Shown piece by piece: positions 53,858 through 64,000 of a stretch of 64,000 bases of DNA. The translations under genes and the position numbers were made by a program. Under the pieces are notes generated by a model. It worked only from the letters and a program-made list of their open reading frames with translations, was not told where the DNA came from and made no database searches. The DNA comes from Solimonas fluminis (GTDB taxonomy: Bacteria > Pseudomonadota > Gammaproteobacteria > Nevskiales > Nevskiaceae): the NCBI RefSeq assembly GCF_002930645.1, contig NZ_PSNW01000015.1:1-64000 (forward strand). Direction: 5' to 3'. The stretch's first letter is position 1, and each line of letters opens with the position of its first letter.

Positions 53858-55168
53858 TTAGCGCGCGGCGGCGACGGCGGCGGGCTGGACCACACCGCTG
53901 CTGTTGCCCCACGAGTTGCGCTGATAGGTCACCACGGCAGCGACGTCGAGATCGGACAGGTGCTTGAACGGAGGCATCATGCCCTTGCCGTTCAGCGTCT
54001 GCTTGATGTGGTCGACGGCGGCGCCCTTGACGATCTTGCTGCCGACCAGCGACGGGAAGTTCGGCGGCAGGCCCTTGCCGGTGGGCTGGTGGCAGGCCGA
54101 GCAGTTGGCGGTGTAGACCTGCTCGCCCTTCTTCATCAGCTCGTCCTTGGACAGGTCCTTGGCGGCGGCGGGGGCAGCCGGGGCGGCGGCGGCCGGAGCG
54201 GCGGCAACCTCCACCGGAGCGGCGGCCGGGGCGGCGTCGGTGGCGGTGGTCGCGGCGGCGGCCACTTCGACCGGGGCGGCGGCGGCCGGGGCGGCAGCGG
54301 CGGCTTCACCGCCCTTCTGCTTGGCCAGCCAGGCCTGGTACTCGGCCTCCGGCAGGGCGCGGACCACGATCGGCATGAAGCCGTGGTCGCGGCCGCAGAG
54401 TTCGGCGCAGACGCCGCGGTAGACGCCCGGCGTGTTGATCTTGGCCCAGGTCTCGTTGACGTAGCCGGGGATCGCATCCTTCTTCACGGCGATCTCGGGC
54501 ACCCACCAGGCGTGGATCACGTCGTTGGAGGTGACCAGGAAGCGGACCTTCTTGCCGACCGGCAGCACCAGCTCGTTATCGACGTTGACCAGGTAGTTGC
54601 CGCCGTCGACCTTCTTGAGCTTCTCGAGCTCGTCCTTGCTGAAGGTCTTGGCCCAGGCGGCGCCGCTGAGCAGGCCGTTGCCGTCGTGCTGGCGGGCGGC
54701 GTTGGACTCGGCGGCGAGGGTGGAGAAGAACTTCACGTCTTCGCCGATGTACTCGTATTCCCACTTCCACTGGTAGCCGGTGATCTTCACCGTCATGTCC
54801 GCGTTGCGGGTGTCTTCCATCTTGATCAGGGTGCCGGCCGCCGGGATGGCCATGCCGATCAGGATCAGGAAGGGCGCGGCGGTCCAGAGGATTTCCACCG
54901 TGGTGGACTCATGGAAGTCGGCCGGCTTGTGGCCCTTGGAGCGGCGGTGGTTGATGATCGAGTAGATCATCAGGCCGAAGACGACGGTGCCGATCGCCAC
55001 GCAGATCCAGAAGATCAGCATGTGGAGGCTGTGCACCTCCTTGCTCAGGTCAGTGACGCCGGTCGGCAGGTTGTAGCCGCCGCTCGTTTCCGTGTAGGCC
55101 TGCGCGACAAACGCCGCCAGAGCCAGTGAGGTACCTGCTGCGATACGCGCAAGCCGTCCCATCTTCAT
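53858..55168 (-). CDS. coxB: Cytochrome c oxidase subunit II fused to cytochrome c domain
   Basis: The 436-residue protein has a signal-like N-terminus, two membrane helices, a cupredoxin domain with CuA ligands in CAELCGRDHGFM and upstream NDVIHAWW, then an Ala/Pro/Val-rich linker and a C-terminal class I cytochrome c domain (CSACHQP, axial Met in GKGMMPPF). It receives electrons from cytochrome c through the fused heme and CuA. The caa3-like fusion removes the need for a separate final carrier. It lies four bases after the DUF2244 gene. Confidence 0.97.
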   Translation of the reverse strand: MKMGRLARIAAGTSLALAAFVAQAYTETSGGYNLPTGVTDLSKEVHSLHMLIFWICVAIGTVVFGLMIYSIINHRRSKGHKPADFHESTTVEILWTAAPFLILIGMAIPAAGTLIKMEDTRNADMTVKITGYQWKWEYEYIGEDVKFFSTLAAESNAARQHDGNGLLSGAAWAKTFSKDELEKLKKVDGGNYLVNVDNELVLPVGKKVRFLVTSNDVIHAWWVPEIAVKKDAIPGYVNETWAKINTPGVYRGVCAELCGRDHGFMPIVVRALPEAEYQAWLAKQKGGEAAAAAPAAAAPVEVAAAATTATDAAPAAAPVEVAAAPAAAAPAAPAAAKDLSKDELMKKGEQVYTANCSACHQPTGKGLPPNFPSLVGSKIVKGAAVDHIKQTLNGKGMMPPFKHLSDLDVAAVVTYQRNSWGNSSGVVQPAAVAAAR

Positions 55169-55172
55169 CGCC

Positions 55173-55712
55173 TTACTCTCCCGAACATAAGTCTTGGGTG
55201 GAGGGCTCCGGCCCCCTACCGACTGCAGCCGCCGCGCCCTCGGGCGCCACCGGCCTCAGCAATTCCTTGATGCGCTCGCGCAACGCCGCACGCTCGTCAT
55301 CGGTGAGGCAGCGGCCGATCTCGACCCTCCGCCCCGCGTACATCAGCAACAACCGCTGCGGATCGTTCCGGCGACGGCCCGGTTCCAGCACCGCCCGCGT
55401 CCACGTCCGCGGCCAGACCAGGCGCCGCCCCACCCCGCTCCCCAGGGAGCCGAACTCCACCGCCAGCTGCCCGCCTTCGAAGCTGAGCACCTCGCGGTAA
55501 CGGTTACGCCTCAGGGAAACCCACAGGGCCGCCCCAAGCGCCGATAACTCCAGGCCCGCAAACGGAAAAATGGGCCAGAACCCCTGGGCGGCGAACACCC
55601 CCGCGATGCCCAGGCCCGGCACAGAGACCAGGGCCATGAACCCGGCCGCCTGACGCGGGGTCAGGGAAGCATTGGGTCCGATAACCAGTCTGGTGTTGAC
55701 GGGGGCAGTCAT
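55173..55712 (-). CDS. DUF2244 membrane protein
   Basis: The 179-residue protein has two membrane helices (AAGFMALVSVPGLGIAGVFA and FPFAGLELSALGAALWV) and a soluble C-terminal domain (RNRYREVLSFEGGQLAVEFG...), the DUF2244 pattern. DUF2244 genes are often first in alphaproteobacterial and gammaproteobacterial cox operons, and this one ends four bases before coxB. Its function is unknown; the context suggests a role in oxidase biogenesis. Confidence 0.85.
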   Translation of the reverse strand: MTAPVNTRLVIGPNASLTPRQAAGFMALVSVPGLGIAGVFAAQGFWPIFPFAGLELSALGAALWVSLRRNRYREVLSFEGGQLAVEFGSLGSGVGRRLVWPRTWTRAVLEPGRRRNDPQRLLLMYAGRRVEIGRCLTDDERAALRERIKELLRPVAPEGAAAAVGRGPEPSTQDLCSGE

Positions 55713-55857
55713 CCGACGGCGTCCAGCCGCGGAATTGTAGTGCAACGCAATCGGGCCGCGCAAAGGCCGCAGCGGCGATTTCAGCATCCGGAACAGTCGT
55801 TTTCGCGCGATCCGGCGCCGCCTGAAGCCCCCTTCGGCTGCCGCGGCGGAGCCGGCG

Positions 55858-56571
55858 CTAGGCGTCCCCGTCCGGCTCCGGGGCCGGCGGCGGCCGCAGG
55901 AAGCGCTCCAGCGGCGCCAGGTCCAGCGCGCGGCCGGCTCCGGCCGCGTCGGCGCCGGCGGGAATCACGCCCAGCAGCGGCGCGGCGAAGCGGCGGCGCA
56001 GGGTCTCGATGTTGCCTTCCAGCAGAGGCATCTGCGGCGGCAGCACGTTGGCGATCCAGCCGGCCAGCTTCGCGCGCCGGGTGATGGACTCGGCGCTGAG
56101 CAGGGCATGGTTGAGGCAGCCCAGGCGCATGCCCACCACCAGGATCACCGGCCACTCGCGCTCGGCCACCCAGCTGCCCAGGGTCCAGACCTCGTCCAGC
56201 GGCACCTGCCAGCCGCCGGCTCCCTCGGCCACGATGACCTCGTGGCGCGAGGCCAGCTCGCGCTGCGCCACGTCCAGATCGGCCCTGCGGATGCGCCGCC
56301 CTTCCAGCTCCGCCGCCAGGTGCGGCGCCGCCGGTTCGCGCAGCAGGCAGGGGTTGATCAGTTCGTAGGGCTCGTCCGTGCCGCCGGCGTCCTGCAGCGC
56401 CAGGGCGTCCTCGTTGCGCAGTCCCTGCGGGGTCTGCATGCCGCCGGCCGCCACCGGCTTGAAGCCGCAGGCGCGGTAGCCCTGCGCCCGCAGGGCCCGC
56501 AGCAGTCCGCAGGCCGCCAGGGTCTTGCCGGCGCCGGTGTCGGTGGCGGTGACGAAGAGGGTGGAAGTCAT
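55858..56571 (-). CDS. bioD: Dethiobiotin synthetase
   Basis: The 237-residue P-loop enzyme has the ATP-binding site TATDTGAGKTLAA at the N-terminus, the lysine in CGFKPVAAGG and the VAEGAGGWQVPLDE segment. It carboxylates 7,8-diaminononanoate and closes the ring to dethiobiotin. It is the last gene of the biotin operon and starts 10 bases after the bioC stop. bioA, needed for the preceding step, is not in the window. Confidence 0.95.
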   Translation of the reverse strand: MTSTLFVTATDTGAGKTLAACGLLRALRAQGYRACGFKPVAAGGMQTPQGLRNEDALALQDAGGTDEPYELINPCLLREPAAPHLAAELEGRRIRRADLDVAQRELASRHEVIVAEGAGGWQVPLDEVWTLGSWVAEREWPVILVVGMRLGCLNHALLSAESITRRAKLAGWIANVLPPQMPLLEGNIETLRRRFAAPLLGVIPAGADAAGAGRALDLAPLERFLRPPPAPEPDGDA

Positions 56572-56581
56572 CTGGGTTCTG

Positions 56582-57373
56582 TCAGCATTCTGTCGGACGA
56601 CGCAGGACGAGGTAGAGGATTTCCCAGCTGGCGACGATGCCTTCGGCGGTACGCCAGGGCGCATAGGCGCGTTCCAGCGCCGCCAGGGCCGATCGTCCCA
56701 GCAGGCCGCGGCGGCGCTGCGCGCTGGCATTGACCACGCCGGTCTCGCGCAGGGAACGCATCAGCGCGAAGACGTCGGCGTGCGGCTCGCGCAGCAGCTC
56801 CGGACGCAGGCTGTGCAGCTCCAGGCCGGCGGCCTCGGCGCGCGCCAGCCAGGCGGAGGCCGGGTCGAAGCGGTGCACGTGCTCGGCCTGGTCCACCTGC
56901 CGCCAGGCCGTCCGCAGTTCGCGCAGCGTGGCCGGCCCCGGCAGGCTCAGGCACAGCCAGCCGCCCGGCCGCAGGACCCTGCAGGCCTCCGTCATCGCGA
57001 GTTCCGGCTGCGGGCACCATTGCAGCACCAGGTTCGACAGGATGGCGTCGCAGCAGGCCGCCGGCAGCGGCAGGCGCTGCGCGTCGCCGACGAGCGCGTC
57101 GAGCCCAGCGTCGCGCGCAATGCGCACCATGCCCGGCGCGCGGTCCAGCGCCAGTACCTCGGCGCCCGGATACAGCGCCCGCAGCCGCCGGGCGCCGATA
57201 CCGGTGCCGCAACCCAGGTCGAGCAGCCGGCGCGGGGCGCCGGCGCGCGCGGCCAGCTCCGCCAGCAGCGCTTCGCGCGTGCGCAGCTGCAGCGTCGCGG
57301 CGCGGTCATAGCCGGCGGCGGCGGCACTGAAGTTGCGCGCCGCGCGCCCGGCGTCGATGCGGGACAGGGCCAT
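56582..57373 (-). CDS. bioC: Malonyl-ACP O-methyltransferase
   Basis: The 263-residue SAM-dependent methyltransferase starts MALSRIDAGRAARNFSAAA and has the SAM-binding motif LDLGCGTGIGARRL with downstream LALDRAPGM, plus SNLVLQWCPQPE typical of BioC. It methylates malonyl-ACP so that fatty acid synthesis can build the pimeloyl chain. The bioF stop (TAG) immediately precedes its ATG. Confidence 0.95.
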   Translation of the reverse strand: MALSRIDAGRAARNFSAAAAGYDRAATLQLRTREALLAELAARAGAPRRLLDLGCGTGIGARRLRALYPGAEVLALDRAPGMVRIARDAGLDALVGDAQRLPLPAACCDAILSNLVLQWCPQPELAMTEACRVLRPGGWLCLSLPGPATLRELRTAWRQVDQAEHVHRFDPASAWLARAEAAGLELHSLRPELLREPHADVFALMRSLRETGVVNASAQRRRGLLGRSALAALERAYAPWRTAEGIVASWEILYLVLRRPTEC

Positions 57374-58558
57374 CTACTTCAGGCCCGTGGCCAGCCCCTC
57401 GAGCAGGCCGTCGATCTGCTCCGCGGTGTGCGCGGCGGAGAAGGTGATGCGCAGGCGCGAGGTGCCGTGCGGCACCGTCGGCGGGCGGATGGCCGCCACC
57501 CAGTAGCCGCGGTCGAACAGCGCCTGCGACAGGTCCAGGGCGCGCTGCTCCTGGCCCAGCACCAGCGGCTGGATCGGCGTCTCCGAATCCGACAGCGGGA
57601 TGCCGAGCTGGCGCGCGCCGGCACGGAAGCGGCGCACGTTGGCCAGCAGGCGCTCGCGGTGCTGGGGCTCCTCGCGCACGATGCGCAGCGCGCGGCGCGC
57701 GGCGGCGGCGATGGCCGGCGGCGGCGCGGTGGAGAAGACCCAGGTGCGTGCACGCTGGATCAGGTATTCGATCAGGGCTTCCGAGCCGGCGACGAAGGCG
57801 CCGCCGCAGCCCAGCGACTTGCCCAGCGTGGCGACATAGACCGGCACTTCGGGAACCCCCAGGCCGGCGGCATGCACGGCGCCCTCGCCGTGCGGCCCCA
57901 GCACGCCCAGGCCGTGCGCGTCGTCCACCATCAGCGTGGCATCGCGGGTGGCGCAGAGCTCGGCCAGCTGCGGCAGCGGCGCGATGTCGCCGTCCATGCT
58001 GAACACCGAGTCCGTCACCGCCAGGCGCTGCTCGCCGTCGGCCGCCGCCAGGGCCACGGCCCAGGCGTTGAGATCGGCGTGGTTGGCGCGCAGGTACTGC
58101 GCGCCGCTGAGGCGGCCGCCATCGATCAGCGAGGCGTGGTTGAGTTCGTCGGCGATCACCGAATCGCGGCGCCCGGCCAGCGCGCGGATCACGCCGAGGT
58201 TCGCCGCCCAGCCGGAGGAGAACAGCAGCGCCCGCGGGCGCCCGAGGAAGTCCGCCAGTTCCTCCTCCAGTGCCTGGTGCTCGCGGTTGTAGCCGGAGAT
58301 CAGCGCCGCCGCGCCGCTGCCGGTGCCGCCGGCGTCGAGCGCCGCCTTGGCCGCCGCCGCCAGGCGCGGGTCGGCCGCCAGGCCCAGGTAGTCGTTGCTG
58401 CAGAAATTCAGGCACTCGCGGCCGTTGACCAGGATGCGCACGCCGTGCGCACCCTCGATCACGCGGCGCGTGCGGTACAGCGCGCGGGCGCGCAGCTGGT
58501 CCAGCTCGCCGCGCAGGCGCGCGTCGAGCGGGTTTTCCGTCTTTGCATCCGGCTTCAC
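57374..58558 (-). CDS. bioF: 8-amino-7-oxononanoate synthase
   Basis: The 394-residue PLP enzyme has LNFCSNDYLGLA near the N-terminus, the DDAHGLGVLG aspartate motif and the PLP-binding lysine in VATLGKSLGCGG. It condenses pimeloyl-ACP with alanine. The start used here is GTG at 58558, giving the family length; a TTG at 58582 overlapping the M48 gene stop is an alternative. It is followed directly by bioC and bioD. Confidence 0.95.
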   Translation of the reverse strand: MKPDAKTENPLDARLRGELDQLRARALYRTRRVIEGAHGVRILVNGRECLNFCSNDYLGLAADPRLAAAAKAALDAGGTGSGAAALISGYNREHQALEEELADFLGRPRALLFSSGWAANLGVIRALAGRRDSVIADELNHASLIDGGRLSGAQYLRANHADLNAWAVALAAADGEQRLAVTDSVFSMDGDIAPLPQLAELCATRDATLMVDDAHGLGVLGPHGEGAVHAAGLGVPEVPVYVATLGKSLGCGGAFVAGSEALIEYLIQRARTWVFSTAPPPAIAAAARRALRIVREEPQHRERLLANVRRFRAGARQLGIPLSDSETPIQPLVLGQEQRALDLSQALFDRGYWVAAIRPPTVPHGTSRLRITFSAAHTAEQIDGLLEGLATGLK

Positions 58559-58578
58559 ATGCTTCAGGGACTTCGCTT

Positions 58579-59430
58579 TCAAGGCCTTCCTACCGATTTC
58601 TGGAACCGCGCCTGCAATTGCGGCTGCGCGGCATACGCATCGAGCGCGCTGCCCATGGACTTGTCCAGGGCCTCGAGCCTCGCATCCGGTGCCGGGTGCG
58701 TGGCGAACATCAGGGACAGCGTGGAGTCCTGCGCGCTCATCGCCTGCAGGGTCTGCAGCACGGCCGGCAGGCCATAGGGGTCGTAGCCGGCGCGCGCGGC
58801 GATCACCACGCCCATGCGGTCGGCCTCGTACTCGTCGCCCTTGTCGAGGCCGCGGTTCAGCACTTCCTTGACGCCGCCGAGCAGGCGCTCGTTGACCTGC
58901 TCGTTGCCCTTGTCCTTGATGGCGAACTGCTTGAGCAGCTTGCCGCCCAGGCTCATGCCCTGCGCCTTGCGCACCGCGTCGAGGTGATGCTTCTGCACCA
59001 CGTGCGCGATCTCGTGCGCCAGCACGCCGGCGAGCTCGGACTCGCTGCGCATGCGCCCCAGCAGTCCGCGGGTGACGAAGACGTAGCCGCCGGGCGTGGC
59101 GAAGGCGTTGACGTTGGGCGAGTCCAGCACGCCGAAGCGCCAGGCCAGCTGCGGACGCTCGCTGTGCAGCGCCAGCCACAGGCCGACCTCGTTGACATAG
59201 CGCTGGGCCTTGTCGTTGCCCCACAGGGGCGCGGCGCCGAGCAGGGTCTCGGCCCATTGCCGGCCGATGTCGCGCTCCTCGTCGACGCTCTTCTCGGTGA
59301 CCATGCCGGCGGCGTCGGAGCCGTAGGTGCTCACCGCCTCCTGTGCCTTGTTGAACAAGCCGCCCCAGTCGGCCGCCCAGGCCGGCGCCGACAGCAGCAA
59401 GCCGGCGATCACGCATGCGATGTTCTTCAT
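58579..59430 (-). CDS. Exported M48-family zinc metalloprotease
   Basis: The 283-residue protein has a signal peptide (MKNIACVIAGLLLSAPAWA) and an M48 domain with the zinc-binding HExxH in VLAHEIAHVVQKHH and the third ligand region KGDEYEADRMGV. Such proteases (like BepA/LoiP) act in periplasmic quality control. AGGAGG lies before the ATG at 59430. It follows the SH3 gene by 11 bases and precedes bioF, within an unusual mixed operon. Confidence 0.92.
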   Translation of the reverse strand: MKNIACVIAGLLLSAPAWAADWGGLFNKAQEAVSTYGSDAAGMVTEKSVDEERDIGRQWAETLLGAAPLWGNDKAQRYVNEVGLWLALHSERPQLAWRFGVLDSPNVNAFATPGGYVFVTRGLLGRMRSESELAGVLAHEIAHVVQKHHLDAVRKAQGMSLGGKLLKQFAIKDKGNEQVNERLLGGVKEVLNRGLDKGDEYEADRMGVVIAARAGYDPYGLPAVLQTLQAMSAQDSTLSLMFATHPAPDARLEALDKSMGSALDAYAAQPQLQARFQKSVGRP

Positions 59431-59441
59431 GGCGGGCCTCC

Positions 59442-59924
59442 TCACTGCAGATAGGGGACGGTCTGCTCGGCCAGGGGGCCGGCCTGCGCGAAGCTGCGCG
59501 CGCGGTCGCCGCTGGCGGCATAGGCTTCGAGCCTGGCGGCCTCCACCGGGTTCGGCGCGGCATTGGCGATCTGCTCGCGGTCGAGCCCGCGCACGCCGGT
59601 GGCCACGGCGGTGCCGCTGGACCCGCTCAGCGCCACGTTGGCGGCCTTGGCCAGGCCCGATTCGGCCGCGCGCGCCGGAGCGCCGACCGCCAGGCGCACC
59701 GACAGCAGCCGCACCCAGCCGGTCTGCCCGGAGGCCGTCACCTTCATCCAGGCGCCCTGGCGGGCGAGGACTTCCAGCGGCGCGGCCGCCGGCAGTTCCG
59801 CCACCGTGGCGGCATCGGCAAAGGGCTCCTGCTTGAGCGGACCGGCCTTGGCCAGCACGCCGCTCTCGGCAGCCCACGCGCCACCGGCGAAAACCGCCAG
59901 CAGCACCGCAATCCATCGCTTCAT
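59442..59924 (-). CDS. Exported bacterial SH3-domain protein
   Basis: The 160-residue protein has a signal peptide (MKRWIAVLLAVFAGGAWA) and a bacterial SH3-type beta domain (ESGVLAKAGPLKQEPFADAA to QTGWVRLLSVRL), followed by a small helical C-terminal part. It probably binds peptidoglycan or other periplasmic partners. Its ATG overlaps the TGA of the CHASE2-cyclase gene (ATGA), so the two are translationally coupled, a common arrangement for CHASE2 systems. Confidence 0.8.
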   Translation of the reverse strand: MKRWIAVLLAVFAGGAWAAESGVLAKAGPLKQEPFADAATVAELPAAAPLEVLARQGAWMKVTASGQTGWVRLLSVRLAVGAPARAAESGLAKAANVALSGSSGTAVATGVRGLDREQIANAAPNPVEAARLEAYAASGDRARSFAQAGPLAEQTVPYLQ

Positions 59925-61780
59925 GAGGTCTCTCCCTTCCCGGGTTCCGTTCCAGACTCGTACGCAGGCTCGTAGAGCTGCACGTCCTGCGCCCTGCCCT
60001 TCACCTTAAACGAACCCCGTGGCGCAAACCGGAACTGCGTCGCGCAAGCCTCCATGGTGTCGCTGGAGACCAGGATGCGGGCCACTCCCTTGGTCAGTCC
60101 CTCCACCCGGCTGGCCAGGTTCACGGTGTCGCCGATGGCCGTGTAGTCCAGCTTCTGCTCGGCGCCGATGAAGCCCACCACCGCCGTGCCGGAATGGATG
60201 CCGATACCCACGTCGAAATCGCCCGCCGCCGCGCCCAGCTCCTCGCGGAAGGCCAGCAGCTCGCGCTGCATGTCCAGGGCGCAGGCCACGGCCCGCTGCG
60301 CATGCTGCGCGTCGGGGATCGGCGCCCCCCAGAAGGCCATGATGCAGTCGCCGATGAACTTGTCGAGCGTTCCGCCATGGCGGAACACCACCGCCACCTG
60401 GCGCGAGAAGTAGCGGTTCAGCAGTTCCACGATCTCCTGCGGCGGCCGCGTCTCCGACAGCGAGGTGAAGCCGCGGATGTCCGAGAACAGCACGCTGACC
60501 TCGTGCTGGCGGCCCGACAGCGACTCCACGGTCTCGCCCCGCTCCATCAGCTGGTTGACCACCACCGGATTGAGGAAGCGCCCGAACAGCTGCACCGCCT
60601 GGCGCCGCGCGCGGCGCTCGCGCAGGTATTCCAGCAGGGCGGCGCTGAAGTAGAAGGCCCAGGCGAAGCCCAGCGGCAGCAGCACCGGCAGCAGCCACAG
60701 CCGCGGCACCGCGGCCCAGGCGCCGGCCAGCAGCGCCGTGCTGACCACGGCGAACGCGACGCCGATCGCCAGCGCATGGCCGCGCCGGTGGAAGGCCAGC
60801 CACAGCAGCGCGATCAGCAGCAGCGCCAGCAGCGGCGCCGCCCAGGCCGGCGGCCGCTGCATCCAGCGGCCATGCTTGAGGTTGTCCAGCGCGGTGGCCA
60901 GGATCTCCACGCCCGGGTAGCGGTTGGCCAGCGGCGTCACGCGCAGGTCGTGCAGCATCGAGGCGGCGGAGCCGATGATGACGATGCGGTCGCGGAACTC
61001 GTCGGCAGGCCGCTGCCGCTGGCGCCGCAGCAGGTCGGCATGAAGGTCGGCAAACGAGACATGCCGGTAGCCGATGCCGCCACCCCCGCGCCAGTGCAGC
61101 AGCAGCGATTCGCCGGGCGGCACGGCCCAGCCGAGGTCGGCGGCGATCCGCACCGGCAGCGAGGGAAATTCCCAGCCCTGCACGTTCATGCGCAGCAGGT
61201 AGGCGCGGCCGACACCGTCGGACTCTTCCTCGAAGTTGATCAGGCCGGTGCGCCAGGCCTCCGGCGGCAGCACCAGCGGCGGCAGCAGCATGGCGCGGGC
61301 ATCGTCCCGCGCCGCGGCCGTCGGATGCGCCCCCATCGGCGGGCCGAACTGCGACAGCGGCACGCCCCGCGCGTCGTCCTGCGCCGACAGCCGCAGGCTC
61401 GGCACGTAGACGCGCGGCTGGTCGCGCAGCAGGTCGGCCAGGGCCTGGTCGCTGTCGGGCCGGTCGATGTCGCGCTCGGAGAAGGACAGGTCGAACACCA
61501 CCGCCGCCGGCTGCTGCGCCAGCAGGCCCGGCAGCATCTCGGCGTAGATCGCGCGCGGCCAGGGCCAGCGGCCGTAGTCGTCCTGCAGGCGCGCCAGGCT
61601 GGCCTCGTCGATGTCGACGATGACGATGCCGGGATCGGGGGCAAGGCGCGCGGCATGCGCGCGCACGAAGGCGTCGGACAGGCGGTGCTCCAGGCCGGCG
61701 CCCAGGTGCAGCAGGCCCAGTTCCAGCAGCGCCAGCGCCGCGAGCAGCAGGGCCGCGGCGTTCAGCGAGCGATTCGCCAT
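59921..61780 (-). CDS. CHASE2-domain adenylate/guanylate cyclase
   Basis: The 619-residue protein has an N-terminal membrane helix (about 8-26), a periplasmic CHASE2 sensor domain (about 30-300), three C-terminal membrane helices (about 310-385) and a class III cyclase domain from about 427. The metal aspartates are in LFSDIRGFTS and DKFIGDCIMAFWGAP, and the transition-state Asn/Arg segment is TAIGDTVNLASR. It should make a cyclic nucleotide in response to a periplasmic signal. It begins 27 bases after bioB, within the biotin operon. Confidence 0.93.
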   Translation of the reverse strand: MANRSLNAAALLLAALALLELGLLHLGAGLEHRLSDAFVRAHAARLAPDPGIVIVDIDEASLARLQDDYGRWPWPRAIYAEMLPGLLAQQPAAVVFDLSFSERDIDRPDSDQALADLLRDQPRVYVPSLRLSAQDDARGVPLSQFGPPMGAHPTAAARDDARAMLLPPLVLPPEAWRTGLINFEEESDGVGRAYLLRMNVQGWEFPSLPVRIAADLGWAVPPGESLLLHWRGGGGIGYRHVSFADLHADLLRRQRQRPADEFRDRIVIIGSAASMLHDLRVTPLANRYPGVEILATALDNLKHGRWMQRPPAWAAPLLALLLIALLWLAFHRRGHALAIGVAFAVVSTALLAGAWAAVPRLWLLPVLLPLGFAWAFYFSAALLEYLRERRARRQAVQLFGRFLNPVVVNQLMERGETVESLSGRQHEVSVLFSDIRGFTSLSETRPPQEIVELLNRYFSRQVAVVFRHGGTLDKFIGDCIMAFWGAPIPDAQHAQRAVACALDMQRELLAFREELGAAAGDFDVGIGIHSGTAVVGFIGAEQKLDYTAIGDTVNLASRVEGLTKGVARILVSSDTMEACATQFRFAPRGSFKVKGRAQDVQLYEPAYESGTEPGKGETS

Positions 61781-61807
61781 GGTCGCGGCCCGGTCAGCGC
61801 GGGAGCC

Positions 61808-62911
61808 TTACTCGGCGCGGGCCGCCTGCGACGAGCCGCAGCCCCCGGCCATCATCGCCGGCGGCGCCTCGTGCTCATGGTGGTGCTCGTGACCGCAGCA
61901 GCCATGCCCCTCTTCATGCGGGTGTGCATCCCCTGCGGCAGCGGGAACGGGCTCGAAGCTGCCGCCTTCCGGCTCGATGCCCAGGCGCGCGAACAGCGCG
62001 CGGTCCTTGGCGTTCTGCGGATTCTGCGTGGTCAGCAGCTTCTCGCCGTAGAAGATCGAGTTGGCGCCGGCCAGGAAGCACAGCGACTGCAGCTCCTCGG
62101 TCATCGCCGTGCGGCCGGCGGAGAGGCGCACGTAGGACTTGGGCATCAGCACGCGGGCCACCGCGATGGTGCGCACGAACTCCAGCGGGTGCAGGGCCTC
62201 GGCGCCCTTGAGCGGCGTACCCTCGACCTGCACCAGGTTGTTGATGGGCACCGACTCCGGGTGCGGGGTCATGATGGCGAGCTGGCGCAGCAGCTCGGCG
62301 CGGTCCTGCTTCTCCTCGCCCATGCCGACGATGCCGCCGCAGCAGACCTTCACGCCGGCGCTGCGCACGTGCTGCAGCGTATCCAGGCGGTCCTGGTAGG
62401 TGCGGGTGGTGATGATCTTGCCGTAGAACTCCGGCGAGGTATCGAGATTGTGGTTGTAGTAGTCCAGGCCGGCGTCGGCCAGCTTCTGCGCCTGGTGCTC
62501 CTTGAGCATGCCCAGCGTCAGGCAGGTCTCCAGGCCCATGGCCTTCACGCCCTTGACCATGTCCTCGACCTTGGCCAGGTCGCGGTCCTTCGGGGAGCGC
62601 CAGGCGGCGCCCATGCAGAAGCGCGAGGCGCCGTTGGCCTTGGCCTCGCGGGCCGCCTCCAGCACCGCGTCCACGTCCATCAGCGGCTCCTTCTTGAGGC
62701 CGGTGTTGAAGCGCACCGACTGCGGGCAGTAGCCGCAGTCCTCCGGACAGGCGCCGGTCTTGATCGAGAGCAGGGTCGACAGCTGCACCTTGTTGGCGTC
62801 GAAGTGCTGGCGGTGCAGACTCTGGGCACGGAACAGCAGGTCGTTGAACGGCAACTCGAACAGGGCCTGGACCTCTTCGCGGGTCCAGTCGTGGCGCAGA
62901 TCGGTACTCAT
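61808..62911 (-). CDS. bioB: Biotin synthase with His/Cys-rich C-terminal tail
   Basis: The 367-residue radical-SAM enzyme has the cluster motif C-x3-C-x2-C in [14 protein letters not shown] and the later cysteine and arginine region ([18 protein letters not shown]) for the 2Fe-2S cluster. It inserts sulfur into dethiobiotin. The catalytic part ends near residue 320; the last 41 residues form a tail with eight His and three Cys ([19 protein letters not shown]), likely metal-binding. bioB is the first gene of the operon and is divergent from comF. Confidence 0.96.
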
Positions 62912-62985
62912 GAAAGGCTTCCCTATGAATCGTGGGCGGCAGTGTCGGGGCGGACCCCGGGGTTGTCAACCAAAAGGCCTGCCGC

Positions 62986-63648
62986 ATGATTGACGGATGG
63001 CTGGGGGCCCTGTTTCCGGCCGTCTGCACCTGGTGCGGCACCCCCGGCAGCGACGCCTGCCCGGACTGCCAGGCCGGCCTGCCCTGGAACGACCCGGCCT
63101 GCCCCGGCTGCGCCCGCCCCCAGGTCCACGGCGAACGCTGCGGGCACTGCGCCGCCAAGCCCCCGCCCTTCGACGCCGCCTGGACCGCTTTCCGCCTGGA
63201 AGTGCCTGTCCAGCAAGGAATTCATCGCCTGAAATACCAGGGGCGGCTGATCGAGGCCGCGCGCCTGGGCCGGCTGCTGGCGCCGCGCCTGCCCTCGCGC
63301 CCGGACCTGATCCTGCCGGTGCCCCTGCACCGCTGGCGCCTGGCCCGGCGGGGCTACAACCAGGCCGGGGAACTGGCCCATCACCTGGGCCGGCTGACCG
63401 GCATCGCGGTGGACCCGCGCCTGGCCGTCCGGCGCCGCGCCACCCCCGACCAGATCGGCCTGACCGCCGTGGAGCGCCGCCGCAACCTGCGCGGCGCCTT
63501 CCATATAAGGAGTGCGCTCGACGGCCTGCACCTGGCCCTGCTGGACGACGTCATGACCACCGGCGCCACCCTGTCCGAACTGGCCCGGGCCTGCCGGCAG
63601 GCCGGGGCCGCCCGGATCGAGGCCTGGGCGGTGGCCCGCACCGCATGA
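62986..63648 (+). CDS. comF: ComF family phosphoribosyltransferase-like protein
   Basis: The 220-residue protein has an N-terminal zinc-finger-like region with four C-x2-C pairs (CTWCG, CPDC, CPGC, CGHC) and a PRTase domain with the PRPP loop LLDDVMTTGATLSEL. ComF (GntX in E. coli) is linked to DNA uptake and carbon use of DNA; its reaction is not established. It is divergent from bioB across a 74-base gap. Confidence 0.9.
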   Translation: MIDGWLGALFPAVCTWCGTPGSDACPDCQAGLPWNDPACPGCARPQVHGERCGHCAAKPPPFDAAWTAFRLEVPVQQGIHRLKYQGRLIEAARLGRLLAPRLPSRPDLILPVPLHRWRLARRGYNQAGELAHHLGRLTGIAVDPRLAVRRRATPDQIGLTAVERRRNLRGAFHIRSALDGLHLALLDDVMTTGATLSELARACRQAGAARIEAWAVARTA

Positions 63649-63722
63649 GCAGGCAGAAAGCGCCGCCAGGCCTCACAATCCGCGCCCCGCGCCGTCCGGA
63701 GCGGGCCGCCCCAAGGTGATCC

Positions 63723-64000
63723 GTGGACAATCAGCCGCCCTCGCAGCCCTTCAACCGCCTGCCCCTGCACCCCGCCCTGCTGCAGGCGCTGGACTCGCTG
63801 GAATACCGGCAGATGACGCCGATCCAGGCGCTGAGCCTGCCGCTGATCCTGGAAGGCCGCGACGTGATCGGCCAGGCCCGCACCGGCAGCGGCAAGACGG
63901 CGGCCTACGGCCTGGGGCTGCTGTCGCGCATCGATCCCGACCTGAAGCAGCTGCAGGCCCTGGTGCTGTGCCCGACCCGCGAACTGGCGGACCAGATCGC
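63723..64000 (+). CDS. dbpA: ATP-dependent RNA helicase DbpA (5' part)
   Basis: The visible 92 codons encode a DEAD-box helicase N-terminus with a Q motif (YRQMTPIQALSLPLIL), the P-loop ARTGSGKT (residues 52-59) and motif Ia PTREL in VLCPTRELADQ, closely resembling DbpA. DbpA unwinds 23S rRNA hairpin 92 during 50S assembly. The start is GTG with AAGG upstream. The rest lies beyond the window, so the C-terminal rRNA-binding domain cannot be checked. Confidence 0.88.
   Translation, partial: MDNQPPSQPFNRLPLHPALLQALDSLEYRQMTPIQALSLPLILEGRDVIGQARTGSGKTAAYGLGLLSRIDPDLKQLQALVLCPTRELADQI

Follow-up and report, generated by a model that had tools for sequence, protein, structure and literature searches.

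In a 64,000-nucleotide stretch of Solimonas fluminis DNA (contig NZ_PSNW01000015.1; hereafter the window) we found that three genes, encoding a predicted CHASE2 class III adenylate cyclase, an SH3 protein and an M48 metalloprotease, form an insertion between bioB and bioF, genes that adjoin in most relatives, and that the biotin operon stayed intact around them. The reading we favour, which we hold to be somewhat better than evenly balanced, is that this trio was captured once, is transcribed from a BirA-operated bioB promoter and serves as an envelope-sensing cyclic AMP (cAMP) module. From bioB (62911) through bioD (55858) every gene lies on the minus strand and no gap exceeds 27 bases:

62941..62996, minus strand: candidate bioB operator and promoter, a BirA-type inverted repeat with a -35 element in its right half
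61808..62911, minus strand: bioB, biotin synthase (TIGR00433, 421.9 bits, cut-off 225), then a 27-base gap to the cyclase gene
59921..61780, minus strand: predicted CHASE2 class III adenylate cyclase, 619 residues (Pfam CHASE2, 181.9 bits; Guanylate_cyc catalytic domain, 105 bits, cut-off 21.9)
59442..59924, minus strand: SH3 protein, 160 residues (SH3_4, 30.8 bits, cut-off 24.1), then an 11-base gap to the M48 gene
58579..59430, minus strand: M48 metalloprotease, 283 residues (Peptidase_M48, 108.3 bits, cut-off 20.3)
57374..58582, minus strand: bioF with a TTG start (TIGR00858, 453.2 bits, cut-off 426.45), with a gap of 0 to bioC
56582..57373, minus strand: bioC-like methyltransferase (TIGR02072, 175 bits, slightly below the cut-off of 184.95), then a 10-base gap to bioD
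55858..56571, minus strand: bioD, dethiobiotin synthase (TIGR00347, 143.4 bits, cut-off 83.3)

These coordinates agree with the original prediction, made from the sequence of the window, which had placed the trio between bioB and bioF, all in one orientation and no more than 27 bases apart. It had counted a single overlap; a 4-base ATGA overlap does join the cyclase and SH3 genes, but there are two such overlaps, the other being a 4-base TTGA that joins the M48 stop to the TTG start of bioF. In what follows the window genome is labelled G000, its genus mates G001, G002 and G003, and the carriers of the insert in other genera G008, G030 and G076. The TTGA overlap is identical in all four genomes of the genus; G008 has TTGA at the same place, GTG and ATG starts overlap the stop in G030, and the nearest ATG in G076 lies 4 bases past the stop.

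We compared this arrangement across 58 genomes of the family, in which bioB was found in 57 and bioF in 57; 56 genomes were comparable, one having neither bio gene and one, of genus g9, having bioB and bioF on different contigs. In 49 of the 56 the distance between the bioB and bioF matches is -87 to 177 bases; in the other seven it is 3228-3358 bases, and in each of these the three genes of the trio stand between the two in an identical order. By genus, the carriers are 4/4 of the window's genus, 1/3 of g6, 1/11 of g11 and 1/5 of g9, so that the arrangement, for which a comparison with the bio operons of related genera had been proposed, is found in seven of 56 genomes and four genera and not in this strain only. 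A sequencing or binning artefact is ruled out by the same order in all four genus genomes and three further genera. Around carriers and relatives the order comF - bioB - bioF - (bioC) - bioD - DUF2244 - coxB holds in most stretches, some of which end at contig edges. No mobile-element scar was seen, as the two junctions (120 bases at one, 100 at the other) share no word of at least 8 bases in direct orientation, and the tandem repeats found were two weak ones within the cyclase gene only. The cyclase was matched at E-values up to 1e-90 in 10 of the 58 family genomes, and in G016, G036 and G070 the trio lies in stretches without a bioB match. The original prediction had posed co-expression with biotin synthesis and an insertion that kept the operon intact as alternatives; both halves hold, the second as observed and the first as probable only.

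The case for shared transcription begins before bioB. In the window the half-sites CCGTCAATC and GGTTGACAA lie 16 bases apart, the right half holds a perfect -35 hexamer (TTGACA), and 17 bases on stands GACACT, a weak -10; across the genus we saw TTGACA, then 17 bases, then GACACT or GAAACT. A promoter overlapped by an operator is therefore plausible at this position. The portion of PMC545781 available gives the BirA operator consensus as TTGTcAACC...GGTTgACAA with a spacer of 14 or 15, and with this published form 45 of 54 regions (200 bases before bioB) beat dinucleotide shuffles (p up to 0.03) and nine, including that of G076, failed. A family form, TTGTCAACC-N15/16-GGTTGACAA, scored at least 14 of 18 in 52 of the 54 (250 bases before bioB), all nine earlier misses included, and 13/18 in the remaining two, G030 and G070. 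As controls, none of 48 regions before coxB, 52 before bioD and 56 before bioF matched the family form, and of the spacers from 10 to 22 that we tried only 15 and 16 yielded such scores. All seven carriers have a BirA-type box before bioB (13-16 of 18), and the best match before their cyclase or bioF genes scored 12, the other 13 regions scoring 8 to 10. The genome encodes one biotin ligase above cut-off (TIGR00121, 186.2 bits) with an N-terminal helix-turn-helix domain (HTH_11, 33.6 bits, cut-off 25). In operator type before bioB and in this ligase the operon resembles the BirA-controlled biotin operons described in the available portion of PMC545781, from which it differs in a spacer longer by one or two bases and in holding signalling genes.

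Separate promoters and terminators at each border, which the original prediction had set against a common transcript, were not seen, although the promoter and terminator scans are weak: no terminator was found in 55860-62911 by a scan that returned 1 in the whole stretch against 2.5 in shuffles. No known RNA element reached gathering score in 55000-64000. An operator/promoter was recognised before bioB only, overlapping reading frames continue across the insert, and nothing resembling a terminator was found within it; the trio is therefore probably co-transcribed with the biotin genes from the bioB promoter. With the capture, a module for envelope sensing through cAMP probably became subject to repression by biotin and, given the BirA-type operator at that promoter, the dose of the module is predicted to go up in biotin shortage and down in plenty.

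The cyclase has an N-terminal transmembrane helix, a CHASE2 sensor (residues 12-329), a hydrophobic membrane region and the cyclase domain; with hydrophobic stretches at 5-30 and within 310-383, as judged from sequence only, the CHASE2 domain should be periplasmic. Residues D434, D478, K474, T547, N554 and R558 are each invariant in 57/57 aligned cyclases, and we take them to be two metal-binding Asp, a Lys/Thr purine pair of the ATP type, and the transition-state Asn and Arg. The original prediction had left the product as either cyclic nucleotide; the catalytic residues are intact, and the predicted product is cAMP, a guanylate cyclase being not favoured given the Lys/Thr pair. In a structure model of the cyclase (mean predicted local distance difference test score, pLDDT, 80.2) the matches of a whole-protein fold search were all taken up by the catalytic domain, with Pseudomonas aeruginosa CyaB (3r5g; Z 25.6, root-mean-square deviation (rmsd) 2.1, 191 aligned residues, 34% identity) and Spirulina platensis CyaC (1wc3; Z 23.7, rmsd 2.3, 186 aligned) resembling the modelled domain.

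The SH3 protein has an N-terminal signal peptide (by eye), an SH3 part at about residues 21-80 and a C-terminal TG-RGL motif conserved in an alignment of 25; its model has a mean pLDDT of 70.0, and 92-94 per block over residues 21-70. The protease likewise has a signal peptide (by eye), a HEIAH zinc motif in its Peptidase_M48 domain and, in an alignment of 40 rows, conserved HE..H and GLDK-DE blocks, with H, E and H present in at least 90%. Since both begin with apparent signal peptides, they should act in the periplasm next to the sensor. The closest named protease among solved structures is BepA, the beta-barrel assembly-enhancing M48 protease (residues 45-253 against 6sar, E-value 2.4e-25); BepA has 487 residues with a TPR half, whereas the trio protein has 283 and stops after the protease domain, and it scores 118.9 bits against a BepA equivalog cut-off of 570, so we do not identify it as BepA.

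The nearest described counterparts are Sinorhizobium meliloti CyaD1, CyaD2 and CyaK, which the available portions of PMC13001267 and PMC7529298 present as inner-membrane CHASE2 cyclases (adenylate/guanylate) that respond to a protein signal via the outer-membrane protein NsrA. Likened by description, the two systems would have in common an inner-membrane cyclase, a CHASE2 sensor and cAMP made upon an envelope signal; those portions mention no SH3 or M48 partner. As for candidate receivers, seven HTH_Crp_2 matches stand above cut-off in the genome, and both of the proteins scanned also carry a cyclic-nucleotide-binding domain.

The trio also exists by itself. In a scan of public genomes for relatives of the cyclase we considered the best 80 of at least 588, the closest named relative among the matches listed being Solimonas sp. 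BWSM_106 (cyclase 90% identical). Loci L034 and L044 belong to family genomes that carry the insert, and 45 other loci, from L035-L080, stand alone, L074 being the family's own G070. In 42 of these 45 the cyclase gene is followed by SH3 and then M48; L053 and L073 had no SH3 match, which both gained at a looser setting, and the contig of L060 ends before M48. No bioB match was found in the DNA around the 45 loci, some stretches of which are short, and L077 has a bioF-like match about 7.4 kb off on the opposite strand. An overlap of exactly 4 bases joins the cyclase and SH3 genes in 18 of the 29 loci in which both were called, and the SH3 and M48 genes in 19 of 28. An even sample of the class (274 genomes) held a close cyclase in eight genomes besides that of the window, with all three genes matched in seven of the eight and no bio-gene match within flanks of up to 1.5 kb; the cyclase match of L190 is split into two pieces. 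Among 85 genomes of the order, a close cyclase was found in 11, of which only G038 lies outside the family. The trio without biotin genes was found across beta- and gammaproteobacteria, and because order and overlaps are fixed over so wide a taxonomic distance they point to a single function for the three genes. Among more distant CHASE2 cyclases (33 loci, L081-L113, 29-35% identity) there was no SH3 match and there were six M48 matches (28-34%). We found no paper in the open-licence literature describing the trio or a biotin operon with these genes. A functional link between biotin and envelope sensing gains no support from these loci, as beyond the family no trio was found with biotin genes close by.

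We rejected a conserved fourth gene: the only candidate, a GAF-HD protein at some stand-alone loci, is not in the S. fluminis operon. The GAF-HD gene immediately precedes the cyclase gene, in the same orientation, in 11 of the 45 loci, from Undibacterium, Shewanella and relatives (L045, L049, L052, L054, L056, L057, L061, L064, L067, L069 and L079; domains confirmed for L054), occurs as a fragment in L058 and lies on the opposite strand in L073 and L075; such a neighbour suggests crosstalk with a further second messenger. At L037:8428-9021, L041:8495-9052 and L051:8457-9014 an additional M48 gene, more distant (30% identity), lies about 1 kb before the cyclase, and the window genome encodes two more CHASE2 proteins (G000:C34:90843-91934 and G000:C3:66229-67461).

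Returning to the operon itself, bioH is indeed missing from its usual place, as the original prediction had pointed out, but this is uninformative about the insert because BioH above cut-off is absent from all 58 family genomes; loss of bioH as a result of the insertion is ruled out on the same count. BioC was matched at E-values up to 1e-30 in only 9 of the 58. The C-terminal tail of BioB, past the BATS domain (61808-61950, minus strand), is rich in His and Cys and is possibly metal-binding.

Concerning origin, a tree of 57 cyclases placed the seven biotin-linked cyclases in one clade (bootstrap 96; Shimodaira-Hasegawa-like approximate likelihood ratio test 88), apart from unlinked cyclases of the same family, and the long-branch warnings concern other rows. 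The catalytic half alone (49 rows) again gave the seven as one clade, with a support of 84.8 (not starred). Identities between genera are 0.58-0.65 for the cyclase, 0.59-0.73 for M48 and 0.43-0.58 for SH3, similar to those of the flanking bioF (0.64-0.69) and bioD (0.52-0.58), as vertical descent predicts. Ratios of nonsynonymous to synonymous divergence (dN/dS) against G001 and G003 are 0.17-0.23 for the trio and 0.11-0.12 for bioB and bioF, and against G002 they are 0.51 for the cyclase, 0.23 for SH3 and 0.27 for M48; by these values the trio genes are under purifying selection. A single old capture followed by repeated loss appears likeliest from the sequences compared, with repeated transfer as a live rival.

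The cyclase of G002 (L115:8654-10498) has a history of its own. Its sensor, residues ~24-373, is 0.68-0.82 identical in DNA to genus mates and has sharp edges, against 0.83-0.97 for the catalytic half, and its first 30 codons are 0.97 identical to G000. Synonymous divergence (dS) in pairs with G002 is 0.47-0.61 in the sensor and 0.23-0.28 in the catalytic half, which favours import over selection alone, and the G001-G003 pair shows the same tilt (0.40 versus 0.19). Other windows of low identity (the end of bioB, SH3 and bioC) are low in most pairs, and on the sensor tree G002 is still nearest its own genus. The G002 sensor looks like a swapped one.

Several observations weigh against a single capture placed under BirA. 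The spacer is 15-16 where the available portion of PMC545781 prints 14 or 15, the left half-site of the window (CCGTCAATC) is degenerate, and the family form had been built from the very sequences it scored, which is why the control regions matter. A 12/18 match precedes the cyclase gene of G002 (p 0.017), and a promoter-like site (9/12) lies inside the cyclase gene, the scanned stretch having 2 against 0.2 in shuffles. The guanylyl cyclase 2w01 ranks among the nearest solved structures, so that the choice of ATP leans on the roles ascribed to the catalytic residues. None of the 45 stand-alone trios has an upstream BirA-type box at 13 or more, and since they lack the operator the job of the trio needs no biotin control. 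With the sensor half alone the seven do not form a clade, G008 falling outside, and this weakens the one-capture reading; constraining them to one clade costs 0.57 log units (approximately unbiased test, p-AU 0.483), so that a clade is neither shown nor rejected. Finally, on a midpoint-rooted quick tree of comF, bioB, bioF, bioD and coxB, one gain needs 10 losses where the minimum is 4 changes, which makes repeated transfer cheaper by simple parsimony.

The rival that survives best, and to which we give only a little short of an even chance, is a neutral capture or one of convenience, in which the module needs no more than steady low expression and control by biotin is accidental and without consequence. 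This is compatible with the capture history and denies only that biotin control matters. The existence of the trio elsewhere without biotin genes or a BirA-type box counts for it, as does the lack of the insert in 49 of the 56 relatives, and the operator-less stand-alone trios speak for either accident or later adaptation of biotin control. The tight overlaps kept in all four genus genomes and the purifying selection count against it, but they speak to the importance of the genes and not to that of biotin control.

A lesser but real possibility is that several lateral transfers between genera reached the same slot through recombination within the conserved flanks, bioB and bioF. Besides the count of changes on the flanking-gene tree and the sensor-only tree without a seven-member clade, the sensor divergence of G002 makes recombination at the locus look real. 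However, across genera the trio has diverged at least as much as bioF and bioD have, and the flanks were not carried along, because on the tree of flanking genes G008, G030 and G076 cluster with relatives that have no insert. True functional coupling, in which low biotin limits acetyl-CoA carboxylase and with it fatty-acid and envelope synthesis while the same transcript raises surveillance and cAMP, we consider unlikely: the link of biotin to lipid synthesis, the BirA-type box before bioB in every carrier and the retention of the whole trio throughout the genus count for it, but no bioB match or BirA-type box was found near the stand-alone trios examined, and a close cyclase occurs in only 10 of the 58 family genomes.

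Under the single capture that we favour, a ready-made trio would have become lodged between bioB and bioF, most likely in a single event, in an ancestor of a subclade of the family, and would since have been transcribed from the bioB promoter within one polycistron. The cyclase would make cAMP when CHASE2 registers the state of the envelope, e.g., a misfolded or processed protein, with the SH3 protein and the protease as its probable periplasmic partners; that these two process envelope material or display it to the cyclase is a guess by analogy with S. meliloti. The cAMP would then act via Crp-family proteins. A bolder version, which we think doubtful, would make the trio a hitherto undescribed cAMP system for envelope quality, tied into the BirA regulon, in which a vitamin shortage arms envelope surveillance and the sensor domain is exchangeable.

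For the family, the operon offers a natural example of a signalling module taken into a metabolic operon, with the uninterrupted state kept in 49 relatives for comparison. It also gives a handle on the conserved trio of CHASE2 cyclase, SH3 protein and M48 protease and, if BirA switches the trio, the concentration of biotin would be a simple dial for its dose. For CHASE2 sensors, the arrangement suggests the idea that the protease and SH3 protein may belong to the signal path of the cyclase.

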